DNA from: an uncultured delta proteobacterium
Lineage (GTDB): Bacteria; Desulfobacterota; Desulfobulbia; Desulfobulbales; Desulfurivibrionaceae
Direction of reading: 5' to 3'
DNA length: 64,000 nucleotides
Assembly (NCBI GenBank): GCA_903869265.1
Contig: CAIPYE010000001.1
Coordinates: forward strand, 124,001-188,000
Part shown: positions 20,104 to 28,027 of the stretch, piece by piece
How positions within the stretch are numbered: the first letter of the stretch is position 1
Layout of the letters: each line of letters begins with the position of its first letter
Made by a program: the position numbers and the translations under genes
Notes under the pieces: model-generated
Seen by the model: the letters and a program-made list of their open reading frames with translations, nothing else
The model's database searches: none
Told to the model about the DNA's origin: nothing

Positions 20104-20134
20104 AAAATCCCCCTTCCTGGGAGGAGGAAGGGGG
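20104..20134 (-). terminator. Rho-independent terminator of the octaheme cytochrome gene (possibly bidirectional)
   Basis: CCCCCTTCCT (20109-20118) pairs with AGGAAGGGGG (20125-20134). In the minus-strand RNA the stem is followed by AUUUUAUU. It sits between two convergent genes and could also slow transcription from the DUF2784 gene. Confidence 0.7.
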
Positions 20135-20165: not shown

Positions 20166-21608
20166 CTATTTCATCCTGGCAGCGCCTTTTACGTCCATGG
20201 GATCTCCCTTGTAGCCAAGGGCCTTCCAGTCAAACCTGCCGTTCTTGTCGTGGCAGTCGGTGCAACCCAAAGCATCCTTGGCCGGGGCAACCATGTGGTT
20301 GATCCGCCAATACATGACCGTGGGGGCAAAACCGTAGCTGCCACTGTACTTCAGACCGCTGGCCTCAACGCCTGCCTTGATCGCCCTGTCCCAATCAAAG
20401 TTCTTCCAGTAGGCGTCCTTGTCTTCCTTGCCGGTCGGCCAGACCTTGAAGTTCAGGAAGTAATTGTACTGCTTGTCGTACACCTGCTTGCCGGCATGCA
20501 CCTTGAACGGATAGATCTTGGCGTTCTTGTCCTTGATGCTGCCCGCAGGCGCGTTCAACTCGGTAACCTTGGCGGGATTCATCTTGTCGCCGAGCATATA
20601 GGCGGAGGCATTGCCGTTGTACCATTTGTAAACGGGCTGCACATCCTTGCCCCACTTGAAATGGCCCTTCTTCTTGTCATAGCCGTGGCGTTTCTCCGCG
20701 CCAAAAACCTGATCCTCCACCTTGATATCTTGACCGGCGGTGGACCAGTCCCACTCCAGCTTGGTGGGCATTGCCTTGGCAAAGGTGGGGATATGACAGG
20801 TCTGGCAGGCCACGGCGGCGGTGTGCTTGTTCAGCCGCTCGCTCTTGTGGGGTTTGGCGTCATGGCACTGGGTGCATTCCACATGGTTCTTGCCGCCAGG
20901 CGTAACGATCATGGCATTGCCCTTGATGTTATGCTTCTGGGTGGTATGACATTCGGAACACTGGAAGTTCAGGCTGTCGGTGCCCATGTGGAAATCGATG
21001 GCCTTGGTGGGGTTAACCACCGAAGAGTCGATATCGCCGTGCTTGACGTTGTTGTCGCCACCGCCATAGCCGTGGCAAACCACGCAATTCTGGCGGGTGG
21101 TCTTGCCAACGCTCTGGGCCGAGGCCACCAGATCAACCGGTTTTTCATCCAGTTCCGGCTTGCCGGTAAAGCCGAGGGGCATCCCGGCTCCCCCCAGGTG
21201 GGCCTTCTTGTACTTGCCGGTGGTTTCGTGACAGATCAGGCAATCCACCCTGGTCTTGTCGTTGAAATCAAAGTTGGCGTCCTTCCAGCCGTAACCGACA
21301 TGGCAGCCGGTACAACGGGTCCAGTTGCTGTCGACGGCAATGCAGAAGTTGTTGATGGCATTCTTCTTGCCCAGTTTGACCTTTCCCTTCTTGCCTACGA
21401 TCTCCTGCTCGCTGGACCACGTCCAGTGAGAAGTTTTCATCACCTCCATTGCCGCATCGGCATGGCACTCCAGACATTTCTTGGTCACATCCATGGGCGT
21501 GGCAAACGGCCCGGTGATCACCTTGTGAGCGTCCCCGGCAAACGCCGACCCGCCAGCCACAAGGGCTGAAACCGCCAGTAGCGCGGAAAACATATGGTAT
21601 CTCTTCAT
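20166..21608 (-). CDS. Octaheme c-type cytochrome, tetrathionate reductase (OTR) family
   Basis: 480 residues with a signal peptide (about 1-24, ending AFAG). Eight CxxCH motifs have Cys at about residues 45, 99, 123, 175, 217, 245, 268 and 449. The uneven spacing and the long gap before the last heme are the OTR pattern. In the Shewanella enzyme the active heme carries a lysine ligand, and OTR reduces tetrathionate, nitrite and hydroxylamine in vitro. The physiological role is unsettled; here a periplasmic reductase of sulfur or nitrogen compounds is inferred. The start has AGGAGGAG 12 bases upstream. A sigma-54 promoter lies about 115 bases upstream and a terminator follows, so the gene is probably a single-gene transcript. 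Confidence 0.9.
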   Translation of the reverse strand: MKRYHMFSALLAVSALVAGGSAFAGDAHKVITGPFATPMDVTKKCLECHADAAMEVMKTSHWTWSSEQEIVGKKGKVKLGKKNAINNFCIAVDSNWTRCTGCHVGYGWKDANFDFNDKTRVDCLICHETTGKYKKAHLGGAGMPLGFTGKPELDEKPVDLVASAQSVGKTTRQNCVVCHGYGGGDNNVKHGDIDSSVVNPTKAIDFHMGTDSLNFQCSECHTTQKHNIKGNAMIVTPGGKNHVECTQCHDAKPHKSERLNKHTAAVACQTCHIPTFAKAMPTKLEWDWSTAGQDIKVEDQVFGAEKRHGYDKKKGHFKWGKDVQPVYKWYNGNASAYMLGDKMNPAKVTELNAPAGSIKDKNAKIYPFKVHAGKQVYDKQYNYFLNFKVWPTGKEDKDAYWKNFDWDRAIKAGVEASGLKYSGSYGFAPTVMYWRINHMVAPAKDALGCTDCHDKNGRFDWKALGYKGDPMDVKGAARMK

Positions 21609-21931
21609 AGCGTCTCTCTTCTCCTCCTTAAAAAAATTAGCAGTTACCCTTCACCCTTTCTTAGCCCCAGAGCGAAGGCAGAAAAATCAAGCCCTGCAAC
21701 AACAGATATGGGGGGTTGTGTAGCAACTTAAGTGCCAGCGCAGAAAGAAACGGGCAAGGGGATGATTTATCGAAATAAACCCTGCATGCGGGGAGATTAC
21801 GCAAAAACAAAGGGGAGCAATTTTTATTGACGACACGGGAGGAACACAGATTAACTCATGAAAAAAACGTCGGAAATCCAAGAAACACAGCGCAAACACG
21901 CAAAATATCTTGCACCCCTAGAGGCTGAACC
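21609..21931. other. Intergenic leader region of the octaheme cytochrome gene
   Basis: 323 bases without a convincing gene. It holds the sigma-54 promoter at 21722-21737 and a strong ribosome binding site (AAGGAGGAG) near 21620. The stretch further upstream, towards the PP-loop gene, is AT-rich and would be the place for an enhancer-binding activator; no clear dyad was picked out by eye. Confidence 0.6.
21722..21737 (-). promoter_or_regulatory. Sigma-54 (RpoN) -24/-12 promoter upstream of the octaheme cytochrome
   Basis: On the minus strand the sequence is TGGCAC, five bases, then TTGCT. This is a full match to the -24/-12 consensus with correct GG-GC spacing. Transcription should start near 21710, about 100 bases before the cytochrome ATG. 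RpoN promoters need an AAA+ enhancer-binding activator, so the cytochrome is probably switched on by a specific signal. Confidence 0.75.
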
Positions 21932-24528: not shown

Positions 24529-26085
24529 CTACCCAGCCAGCCTGTTTCTGATGGCCAGGATCGTGTCGATGTTTTCAAAAAAGAGATCCACCAGAACCGG
24601 GTCGAAATGTGCGCCCCGTTCTTTGCGGATAAGCTCAAGGATGGCGTCCATCTCCCAGGCCTCACGGTAGGAACGGTCATTGCCCAGGGCGTCAAACACA
24701 TCAGCTAGGGCCGTGATTCGCGCGCTGATCTGGATATCCTCCCCCTGCAAGCCTTTGGGATAGCCGGTGCCGTCAAATTTTTCATGATGCTGCAGGGCGA
24801 TGATAATAGCGGTCTTGATGACCTCCCGATCGGAAAGGCCCATTATCTCCTGGGCTCGGATGGTGTGGGTCTTCATGATCTCAAACTCTTCGACGGAGAG
24901 TGACCCGGTCTTATTGAGAATGGCATCTGGGATGGCGACCTTGCCCACGTCATGCATGGAGGAAGCAAGGTGGATCACCTCCACCTCCCGCTGGCTCAAG
25001 CCATGTTTTTCGGCGAGCAACCGACTGTATTCCGCCACCCGCCGGACATGGTTGCCCGTCTCCTGGGAACGCATTTCGGCAAGCTCGCCCAAGGTGTATA
25101 TGATCTCTTTCTGGGTTCCTTCGATCTCCTGATTCAGGAGCACGTTTTCGTAGGCCACCTGCACGTTGCCGCAAAAAACCTCGATCATCCGGCGATCATT
25201 TTCGCTGAGATCCCGCCAGCCCTCAAGATAGATAACTGTTTCTTCCCCGCGCTCACTGCAGAAATACCCAGTATAGCAGTTGTCTTCGCAGATGGATTGC
25301 TTGAGCGTTGTCACCCGCTGGACATAATCAAGAATCTTGACCGGCAAATCTCCGCTGACCTCGGCATCGATATACGGCTCATAGGACCCGGTGGCGGCAA
25401 GCATCTTAAAACTGCCCTGCACATTGGACACCGCAATACCCGAGGTCTGGCAGTAAAGAGCGTTTTCACTGAGATGCAGGATGGAAACCAGCTGGGTCAA
25501 GACCCCGCTGGCCAGATTCTTGATCGAGCGAAGACGACAGATATAAGTGGCCGCCTCGATGATTTTTTCCAGCCCCCTGCGGTTGGCCTCGATGGTGAGG
25601 ATGTCCCGATAGGAACGCAGAGAGGCCACCATGGTGGTGAAAAGTTTCTGGGCGGTGAGTTCGGTCTTTTCCTTGTAATCATTGATGTCATACTCGATGA
25701 TGACCTTCTCGGCCGGCGCTTGGCCGGGCTGCCCAGTGCGCAGTATGATCCGGACAAATGAGTTTCTCAGCTCCTCCCGGATGTAGCGGACCAAGTCGAG
25801 TCCGGTATCGGTTTTCTCCATGACCACGTCAAGAAAAATGATGGCGGTGTCGGGGTGCTCGGCAATAAGATCTCTGGCCTCCCGGCCGGAATAGGCATGC
25901 AGAAAAAGCAGTCCTTTATTCTCGTAAGAAAAATCAGCGAGTACCAGTTTGGTGACGGCATGCACCTCTTCCTCGTCATCAACCACCAGCACCTTCCAGG
26001 CGCCTTTGCCCCCGGCCCGTTGCTGAGAGGGTGCAGCCCCGTCCGGTTCATCCGCAAAAAAAACTGCCTCGTATGATTCAACCAT
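24529..26085 (-). CDS. Response regulator with DUF3369 and HD-GYP phosphodiesterase domain
   Basis: 518 residues in three parts. A receiver domain (about 30-150) has WKVLVVDDEEEVH and the phosphoacceptor Asp in IIFLDVVMEKTD. A DUF3369 region (about 170-330) follows. The HD-GYP domain shows HLASSMHDVGKVAIPD, the HH pair in ALQHHEKFDGTGYPKG and DVFDAL. HD-GYP domains hydrolyse cyclic di-GMP to GMP or pGpG, and the metal and GYP residues are intact. ATG 26085 has GGGGGAG 8 bases upstream and overlaps the end of the sensor kinase gene by 8 bases, so the two very likely form a two-component pair. It converges with the ParB-like gene 7 bases away. Confidence 0.92.
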   Translation of the reverse strand: MVESYEAVFFADEPDGAAPSQQRAGGKGAWKVLVVDDEEEVHAVTKLVLADFSYENKGLLFLHAYSGREARDLIAEHPDTAIIFLDVVMEKTDTGLDLVRYIREELRNSFVRIILRTGQPGQAPAEKVIIEYDINDYKEKTELTAQKLFTTMVASLRSYRDILTIEANRRGLEKIIEAATYICRLRSIKNLASGVLTQLVSILHLSENALYCQTSGIAVSNVQGSFKMLAATGSYEPYIDAEVSGDLPVKILDYVQRVTTLKQSICEDNCYTGYFCSERGEETVIYLEGWRDLSENDRRMIEVFCGNVQVAYENVLLNQEIEGTQKEIIYTLGELAEMRSQETGNHVRRVAEYSRLLAEKHGLSQREVEVIHLASSMHDVGKVAIPDAILNKTGSLSVEEFEIMKTHTIRAQEIMGLSDREVIKTAIIIALQHHEKFDGTGYPKGLQGEDIQISARITALADVFDALGNDRSYREAWEMDAILELIRKERGAHFDPVLVDLFFENIDTILAIRNRLAG

Positions 26086-28027
26086 GCGATACTCCCCCAG
26101 GGATGACGGCCGGAAACAGGAGAACAAAGGTTGTTCCCTTCCCTGGCTTGCTTTCACAAGTGATTAGCCCCAGTAATTTCTGGGTTACAAGATTATATAC
26201 GATATGCAGCCCTAAACCGCTCCCACCTTTTTCCCGGTTTGTCGTAAAAAAAGGATCAAAGGCATGGCTGACCTGATCCTCGGTCATCCCTTTGCCATCG
26301 TCGCTGTACCGAAACAGAACATTGCCGCCCTGCAGCCCGATATCAAAAAGCAGAGAGCCGACCTCTCCCTCATCGTAGGCATGATTCAGCGAGTTGGTGA
26401 TGAAATTGGTGACGATCTGGGAAAAAGCCCCTGGATAGCTGTTCAAGGCCAGATCCTCGGGGCAGGAGATCTCCAGACGATGGCCGGTATTCTTCAAAAC
26501 CGGCCTGAGACTCAGACAGACCTCGGCCAGATACTCCTTGACCCGAAAGGTCCTGCGCCCCTCTCCGGACTGATCCACCGCCACCTGCTTGAAGCTGCGG
26601 ATGAGCTCCGCCGCCCGATGGAGATTGGAAAAGATCAGGTTCGCAGCTTCCTGACAGAGAGCAAGATACCCTTCAAGATCGCTGCGTTTCATGCGCCCTT
26701 CCCCATGAAGCGCCACAATCTCCCTGGTTTTGTTTTCCAGATGCGAAGCCGCGGTTACGCCCACGCCCACCGGGGTGTTGATCTCATGGGCAACCCCGGC
26801 CACCAGATCTCCCAGGGCCGCCATTTTTCCCGACTGCACCAGCTGGGCCTGGGTCTGCTCCAGCTGGCCCAGGGTTTCCCGCAACTCCAGGTTAGCGGCG
26901 TCCAGACGAGCGGTGCGCTCCATGACCCGCCGTTCCAGGGTGTCGGTCAGGGCCAACAGATCATGTTCAGCCTGTTTGCGCACGGTGATATCTTCAAAAA
27001 CCACCACCGTGCCCACAACCGTATCGCCTTCCACAAGGGGAGTGCCGACAAACTCCACCGGAAAAACAGCGCCGTCCTTTCTGCCGAAGTAGCGTTCTTC
27101 CCCTTGTTTTTTTTGACCCTCACCATAGGCTGCGCACACCGGACAATCCTCCCGGTCATACGGTTCGCCATCCCAGCGCACATGATGCTGAAAATCATGC
27201 AGATGGTTGCCGATTAACTCTGCCTCATCATAGCCAAGGATCTGCAATCCCGCCGAATTGACAAAGGTTATGCGACCCTCGGTATCCAGGCCATATATCC
27301 CTTCCCCGGCGGAATTCAAAATCAGCTCGTACTCCCGATGCAACCGGGCAAACTGCTCTTCTGCGGCATGACGCTCGGCGACTTCCTTCTGCAACAGGAG
27401 ATTGGCGTCTTCCAAATCGACGGTCCGCTCACGGACCCTTTCCTCAAGCTGATGGTGGGCCGAGGCCAATTTATGCTCCGTTTCCAGACGCAGGCTGATT
27501 TCCCTTTCCAGGGGAGCGAGGGCGATACGCCTCAGGGTGAACCACAGGGCAATTCCCGCGATGGCCGTGAGAAGAAACGAGGCAAGCCCCAGCTGCCAGT
27601 GGAGCTTGCGCAGGAGACTATCCACCTCGCCGGAAGAAGACTCCATCTGCAAGGTCAACAGCTTTCCCTGGAAGAGTACCTTCTCCTCGACCAGAAAGAC
27701 TTTTACCCCTTCCCGGAGGCGGCTGAAGGCAACCAAATCCCGGCCTTCGGAGCCAACGGCAGCCAGACGCACCACCTCGGGATGTTCCTCTCCCCACCGC
27801 TGAATAAATCCGTTTATCCAGTCGTAATCATATTGGAGACGCGGCTCAAGGAAATTGGCCGCCATCAGTTGCAGATCACGGCGGGCTTGATCTTCCGCCC
27901 GGGAAAACAAAAAATTCCGTTGATGCCGGGCAATGATGGTGTCGCCCAGTGCCATGAAAAAAAACAAGACGGCCATGAACGCCATGACCGCCTTGTTATA
28001 TCTACGTTGCTGCGGGCCTGCTTGCAT
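26078..28027 (-). CDS. Membrane PAS-domain sensor histidine kinase
   Basis: 649 residues. Two membrane helices (about 14-32 and about 150-172) bracket a periplasmic sensor of about 115 residues. A coiled coil follows, then a PAS domain (about 245-370, LNSAGEGIYGLDTEGRITFV) holding a DCPVCAAYG insert. The kinase H-box is LVAGVAHEINTPVG, and the ATPase has DDGKGMTEDQ and GGSGLGLHIVYNLV. The Pro-containing HEINTPVG type is common in kinases paired with DUF3369 HD-GYP regulators. The gene starts 19 bases after nrdJ and overlaps the regulator gene, giving the order nrdJ-kinase-regulator. The stimulus is unknown; the CPVC pair could bind a metal or sense redox state. Confidence 0.92.
   Translation of the reverse strand: MQAGPQQRRYNKAVMAFMAVLFFFMALGDTIIARHQRNFLFSRAEDQARRDLQLMAANFLEPRLQYDYDWINGFIQRWGEEHPEVVRLAAVGSEGRDLVAFSRLREGVKVFLVEEKVLFQGKLLTLQMESSSGEVDSLLRKLHWQLGLASFLLTAIAGIALWFTLRRIALAPLEREISLRLETEHKLASAHHQLEERVRERTVDLEDANLLLQKEVAERHAAEEQFARLHREYELILNSAGEGIYGLDTEGRITFVNSAGLQILGYDEAELIGNHLHDFQHHVRWDGEPYDREDCPVCAAYGEGQKKQGEERYFGRKDGAVFPVEFVGTPLVEGDTVVGTVVVFEDITVRKQAEHDLLALTDTLERRVMERTARLDAANLELRETLGQLEQTQAQLVQSGKMAALGDLVAGVAHEINTPVGVGVTAASHLENKTREIVALHGEGRMKRSDLEGYLALCQEAANLIFSNLHRAAELIRSFKQVAVDQSGEGRRTFRVKEYLAEVCLSLRPVLKNTGHRLEISCPEDLALNSYPGAFSQIVTNFITNSLNHAYDEGEVGSLLFDIGLQGGNVLFRYSDDGKGMTEDQVSHAFDPFFTTNREKGGSGLGLHIVYNLVTQKLLGLITCESKPGKGTTFVLLFPAVIPGGVSHG

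Follow-up and report, generated by a model that had tools for sequence, protein, structure and literature searches.

Predicted sigma-54-dependent control of an octaheme tetrathionate reductase-family cytochrome and its candidate link to a seleno-rhodanese operon in a Desulfurivibrionaceae genome

The OTR Gene and Its Predicted Promoter

The window, a stretch of 64,000 nucleotides from the genome of an uncultured member of the Desulfurivibrionaceae (assembly GCA_903869265.1, contig CAIPYE010000001.1), encodes on its minus strand (20166-21608) an octaheme cytochrome of the tetrathionate reductase family (OTR; TIGR04315, 586.9 bits with a cut-off of 375). The product, of 480 amino acids, contains eight CxxCH motifs and matches the OTR of Shewanella oneidensis (1sp3) over its full length with 553 bits. 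The Lys and Cys found at 1sp3 positions 153 and 64 (alignment count) are both conserved. Downstream of the gene, a terminator-like hairpin (20109-20134, minus strand) called by a consensus scan alone, which found four such elements between 20000 and 22000 where 2.4 are expected, suggests that OTR forms a single-gene unit.

Upstream of OTR, the minus strand from 21737 to 21722 reads TGGCACTTAAGTTGCT, i.e., TGGCAC-TTAAG-TTGCT (TGGCAC-N5-TTGCT), which agrees with the sigma-54 -24/-12 consensus at all 11 positions and has the exact spacing. Counted from the ATG at 21608, the T of the TGG is 129 bp upstream and the GC of the -12 box about 115 bp upstream, which puts the predicted transcription start near 21711 and gives a leader of about 103 nt. 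The initial annotation, which had described a full -24/-12 match with exact spacing some 115 bases ahead of the cytochrome ATG, is borne out in both respects. A ribosome-binding site (AAGGAGGAGA, 21620-21629, minus strand) precedes the ATG, and the promoter together with the two upstream dyads described below fits within the 323 bp that separate the OTR start codon from the stop of the upstream gene (21932). A scan for sigma-70-type promoters between 20000 and 22000 returned none, with 1.0 expected by chance. The genome encodes RpoN (Sigma54_DBD, 206 bits) and has 28 matches to PF00158, the final four of which are weak. Between the dyads and the promoter there is a tentative IHF-like site (AATCATCCCCTTG, 21755-21767, minus strand), called with the IHF consensus. 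The match covers eight of the nine consensus positions in five of eight OTR promoters and five to seven in the remaining three, and 13 rhodanese promoters match at six or seven positions, mostly no better than shuffled sequences.

The exact pattern TGGCAY-N5-TTGCW occurs once in the 64-kb window. Shuffled windows contain it 0.24 times on average, with at least one match in 22 of 100 shuffles, and when one mismatch is allowed the window has two matches against 2.93 expected. A single exact match per 64 kb is unremarkable by chance; conservation is the deciding evidence. Over the whole genome (2,816,752 bases in 17 contigs) the exact pattern is found 17 times and the reversed pattern not once.

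Conservation of the Site Across OTR Loci

Of 58 genomes searched for homologues, 29 had matches. From the 30 loci fetched, 26 were used (L011, L021, L028 and L029 were left out) and scanned over 500 bp upstream of OTR, where a site matching at least 10 of the 11 consensus positions is present in 12. All seven loci examined in the window's genus, window included, have the site, at -113 to -134. When these seven genomes are aligned, 10 of the 11 consensus columns are invariant, compared with 116 of 360 columns overall, and three of the five spacer columns vary. In a second set of 80 named loci, 78 of which were used (L035 and L096 were left out; 350 bp upstream, shorter in three), a site of at least 10/11 was found in eight (L031-L034, L036, L037, L090 and L108), six of them from genomes already present in the 26-locus set, while L061, L069, L078 and L095 have 9/11 sites at scattered places. 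The window's gene differs in this respect from that of Shewanella, despite the resemblance of the products: no sigma-54 site of at least 10/11 occurs upstream of OTR in the Shewanella loci examined.

In a tree of 88 OTR proteins (L002, L003, L005, L007, L018 and L023-L027 were left out, as were the repeats L031-L034, L090 and L108), the nine rows with a strong site and L013, whose site is weak (8/11), fall in a single clade of 12 rows with support 100/99. Two clade members, L009 and L039, are without the site, and no strong site is seen in the remaining 76 rows. The site recurs in other genera of the same OTR clade. A merely fortuitous -24/-12 match without promoter function, as the frequency of exact matches in shuffled windows would by itself allow, is hardly credible in view of the invariant elements flanking a varying spacer in seven genomes, the constant spacing of the upstream dyads and the zero matches to reversed controls. 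RpoN control, put forward in the initial annotation, gains support from the conservation of the TGGCAC/TTGCT pair in the genus orthologues, and the prediction of a sigma-54 promoter for the OTR gene is strongly supported at the level of sequence.

Upstream Dyads and the Seleno-Rhodanese Operon

Conserved dyads 80-200 bases upstream had been suggested as something to look for in orthologous loci, and two are found. The seven genus loci and G020 each have [GT]CAA-N6-TTGC twice ahead of the promoter. In the window, the predicted proximal activator dyad (TCAATAAAAATTGC, 21817-21830, minus strand) has a core that ends 79 bp before the TGG and the predicted distal dyad (GCAAGATATTTTGC, 21900-21913, minus strand) one that ends 162 bp before it, their centers lying near -112 and -195 relative to the predicted start. 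The distance from the proximal core end to the TGG is 78-81 bp in all eight loci and that from the distal core end 153-165 bp. In G017, in which the promoter departs once from the consensus, the dyads are at 104 and 199 bp.

A strong dyad at this distance (80 bp) accompanies just one further sigma-54 site among the 17 in the genome. This promoter (C1:248988-249003) lies 130 bp past the end of a gene for a REC-AAA-Fis regulator (C1:247436-248857, outside the window), which contains PF00158 and is preceded by the gene for its partner kinase (C1:245034-247376, also outside the window). It stands before an operon that encodes a REC-only protein and then a triple-rhodanese protein (L195:6552-7871, equal to genome C1:249551-250870, outside the window). 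The rhodanese gene is interrupted by an in-frame TGA within the motif CGGxT-U-GMS, and ordinary ORF calling breaks it into two. In the 18 genomes with this motif the codon is TGA in 14 and TGC (Cys) in four. The codon is followed by GCCGGTCTGGC in 13 of the 14 TGA versions and in none of the four Cys versions; this element forms a small SECIS-like hairpin with the loop GGUCU, which resembles that of the Escherichia coli fdhF element. SelB and tRNA-Sec score above cut-off in the genome, so that a TGA aligned with Cys, a SECIS-like element and the Sec machinery are found together, as expected of a selenocysteine rhodanese. The N-terminus of the protein is signal-like, as judged by eye. Selenoproteins with a rhodanese domain are already a known kind (PMC9312934); the present protein shares with those the predicted presence of Sec in a rhodanese-domain protein, and differs from them in its three rhodanese domains and its predicted sigma-54/two-component promoter.

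The likeness of the two promoters was evaluated with an independent matrix built on 22 sites in rhodanese promoters, to which neither OTR nor the window's genome contributed. Over the 17 sigma-54 sites of the genome, this matrix ranks the rhodanese operon first (21.4, at -80) and OTR second (18.1, at -162), the third score being 10.2. That third candidate, at C14:294931, has nothing at the proximal distance and was set aside. In each of the eight OTR promoters the two best matches to the matrix are the two dyads. However, the proximal dyad of the window scores just 5.5 on this rhodanese-only matrix, where 0.8% of shuffled upstream regions reach a score of 6 in the 9-bp proximal window, and this counts against a model in which the regulator encoded at C1 would control OTR.

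A scan of 27 genomes from the family for a dyad followed after 70-100 bp by the promoter gave 23 matches, nine at OTR, 13 at rhodanese genes and one inside a gene, and none with reversed controls. All nine TCAA-type matches stand before OTR. Twelve of the 14 GCAA-type matches come directly after the regulator, all 12 with a rhodanese gene in the same locus; a further one, in G014, lies 3.5 kb from the regulator and before a triple-rhodanese gene, and the last (G006:C169), within a kinase ORF, was taken as chance. The layout with two dyads is also seen ahead of rhodanese genes in G018 and G033; G054 has it too, with its rhodanese gene beginning 2.0 kb downstream. The promoter, the dyads, their spacing and conservation and the motif common to OTR and the rhodanese operon are read directly from the sequence.

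These data bear on the function of OTR, the role of which is unsettled, the literature dividing the family among nitrite, hydroxylamine and tetrathionate (e.g., PMC4484225; PMC5276818). The promoter could be RpoN-dependent and OTR nevertheless serve in the reduction or detoxification of nitrite and hydroxylamine, with the two-component system answering a nitrogen-oxide signal. The OTR of Shewanella reduces both compounds in vitro (PMC4484225), nitrite reduction by OTR has been proposed for Thermosulfurimonas dismutans and Dissulfuribacter thermophilus, neither of which has NrfA (PMC5276818), and a sigma-54-dependent nitrite-stress operon is described in Desulfovibrio vulgaris (PMC4641369). However, in the 27-genome scan the dyad ties OTR to rhodanese genes and to no nitrogen gene, and the genome contains a separate NrfA-type gene, at least 13 kb from any of the 17 sigma-54 sites, the presence of which weakens the nitrite alternative. 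We consider this alternative unlikely. A rhodanese as putatively co-regulated gene points instead to sulfur, although "rhodanese" is the name of a fold and says nothing definite on the substrate. The initial annotation had anticipated that a specific activator would help to identify the natural substrate of OTR; this holds in part, insofar as the putatively co-regulated rhodanese indicates sulfur.

A Candidate Two-Component Activator

A candidate for the specific activator expected from RpoN control is the C1 regulator, whose neighboring operon is preceded by the dyad seen at OTR, with the spacing found there. In 30 loci encoding relatives of this regulator, a site of at least 9/11 is found within 600 bp after the regulator gene in 15, to which L212 adds a sixteenth, with a dyad 81 bp away; L214, L216, L219, L222 and L223 have no site with a dyad after the regulator. 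When only orthologues at least 83% identical are considered, 13 of 14 have a following promoter with a dyad 79-81 bp away, and the fourteenth (L205) runs off its contig. The regulator, at 83% identity or more, is encoded in every one of the ten genomes whose OTR is at least 70% identical. On the other hand, five congeners (G001, G006, G011, G014 and G016), four of which have genomes just 81-88% complete, carry the regulator without a close OTR, and this, together with the site-less L009 and L039, is a point against the regulon model.

A different activator, such as a paralogue of the C1 regulator encoded at C3:79638-81020, might instead act on genuine promoter and dyad elements to control OTR. 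The paralogue is 52% identical, has the same domains, and its relatives have a similar C-terminal helix-turn-helix region. Nevertheless, the 13 kb around its gene contain no sigma-54 site of at least 10/11, while the C1 regulator is followed in 13 of the 14 close orthologues by an operon of its own with the dyad and the spacing, which makes the involvement of another activator quite unlikely. The assignment of the C1 activator to the OTR promoter is well supported by these comparisons as a prediction. Its partner kinase models as carrying a periplasmic dCache-like sensor. The sensor model built from ten orthologues has a pLDDT of 83 (one from a single sequence, with a pLDDT of 45, was discarded) and matches tandem-PAS/dCache-type ligand-binding domains with varied ligands in the PDB, two of the top 50 matches (9hvj and 7k5n) being so titled.

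A PAS-Type Activator in Sister Families

In sister families the OTR gene is found with another activator. A gene for a PAS-AAA-Fis activator is divergent to OTR in L036, L037, L108, L113, L114 and L012 (incomplete in the last), each of the six has more GTTAAC half-sites before OTR than shuffling would lead one to expect (shuffle fraction at most 0.04), and a sigma-54 site of at least 9/11 is present in five, L113 having just 8/11. Three of these PAS activators were aligned and have cysteines of the PAS region in common. In the activator of L036 (4339-5727) and its relatives the residues conserved in this region are C53, C58, C61, C73 and C86, which could form a redox or metal sensor. A PAS-type activator was also considered as regulator of the window's OTR and rejected: the best match in the genome is 43% identical and has 810 amino acids, and the promoters of the genus carry other dyads. 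The window's genus thus appears to pair a core promoter of this kind with another activator.

Relatives of the PAS activator adjoin genes resembling those of sulfur transporters (in G017, G044 and G032) or a PhsA-like operon (in G047), with NCBIfam scores below the curated cut-offs (PhsA, 456 of 694; TsuA, 194 of 400 as the best score of the G017 transporter). In G044 and G032 a region with GTTAAC and a promoter separates the activator from the gene ahead of the transporter (a DUF3373 gene in G044), and in G027 the same layout occurs before other genes. Of 15 intergenic regions near PAS activators, four (in G017, G045 and two in G047) have no significant excess of GTTAAC. In the G027 locus (L228), the PAS-type activator is accompanied by GTTAAC dyads and a full sigma-54 site between 6052 and 6394, with genes for Fer4_5 and Nitro_FeMo-Co proteins among those on the far side; the 58-genome search found no OTR in this genome.

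The transporters of G044 and G032 score best on the selenium family YedE/FdhT (134 and 122 bits, respectively). This, and the in-frame TGA with a SECIS-like element in the rhodanese gene of most genomes, would fit a regulon that answers selenium rather than sulfur, OTR acting on a selenium oxyanion. However, Cys replaces Sec in four genomes, an active-site selenium does not imply a selenium substrate, the YedE/FdhT scores are below the cut-off of 350 and TsuA is the best-scoring family for the G017 transporter. A selenium regulon is therefore very unlikely.

Proposed Model and Comparison With Known Systems

Returning to the sulfur reading, we regard it as probable, from the sequence comparisons, that OTR belongs to a small sulfur regulon under RpoN and the C1 two-component activator and that the substrate is likely a periplasmic sulfur compound. 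In this model, RNA polymerase with RpoN would occupy the -24/-12 elements of OTR, and the phosphorylated C1 REC-AAA-Fis activator, bound at both [GT]CAA-N6-TTGC dyads some 80 and 160 bp upstream, would open the promoter. The partner kinase would sense its signal through the periplasmic dCache-like domain. The same activator would drive the neighboring operon for the REC protein and the triple-rhodanese selenoprotein, giving a small sulfur regulon in which OTR would come second. Binding by the activator, transcription and the nature of inducer and substrate are what we infer here. A sulfur role may be assigned to OTR: most likely it acts on tetrathionate, thiosulfate or polysulfide in the periplasm, and a role as main nitrite reductase is disfavored. 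A more speculative extension, which we put forward tentatively and hold to be somewhat doubtful, is a dedicated two-operon sigma-54 pathway for polythionate or persulfide in which OTR would cleave the S-S bond reductively and the periplasmic seleno-rhodanese would take the sulfane sulfur, combined with an exchange of activators in which two activators each took over OTR in different families while the core promoter was kept. Two distinct lines of regulatory evidence, the motif shared with the rhodanese operon and, in other families, the PAS activator with relatives next to sulfur genes, speak for a sulfur role. Named genes, dyads and inducers would thereby become available for a test of the role of OTR, and the case would illustrate activator exchange on a conserved sigma-54 promoter.

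A kinase-regulator pair, TtrS-TtrR, has been proposed to control the molybdenum tetrathionate reductase; TtrR is not known as a sigma-54 activator, and the enzyme TtrA contains molybdenum. The system proposed here is similar in that a kinase-regulator pair would serve a putative tetrathionate-reducing enzyme, and differs in that the regulator has PF00158 and the target is a cytochrome. Closer in layout are the sigma-54 regulons of D. vulgaris Hildenborough, which are small, mostly of one to four operons, with activator dyads upstream of a tGGcacg/tTGCt promoter, and one of which includes the electron-transport operon ohcBAC, with an octaheme cytochrome, regulated by the divergent activator DVU3142 (PMC4641369). 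The small regulon, the dyads before a -24/-12 promoter and the octaheme cytochrome as target are common to both; in contrast, the available text of that report concerns Ohc and contains no OTR or rhodanese regulon. A full-text literature search found, provisionally, no published sigma-54 control of OTR; two related reports concern Ohc (PMC4641369) and OmcZ (PMC12325454).

Several further observations were made at OTR and PAS-activator loci. Downstream of OTR in Desulfurivibrionaceae SF_100_bin22 (L037:7724-9912), the genes encode a DUF302 protein, an SBF-family transporter and a Fer4_5 protein, and may belong to one unit. At G041:C59:25002-25124, near and divergent from a PAS-type activator gene, a frame of 63 amino acids matches OTR residues 437-477 and is perhaps an OTR remnant. 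In the window itself (24529-28027, minus strand), a gene for a PAS histidine kinase (26078-28027) adjoins one for a REC-DUF3369-HD response regulator (24529-26157), and the same pair is found near OTR in L033 and L111.
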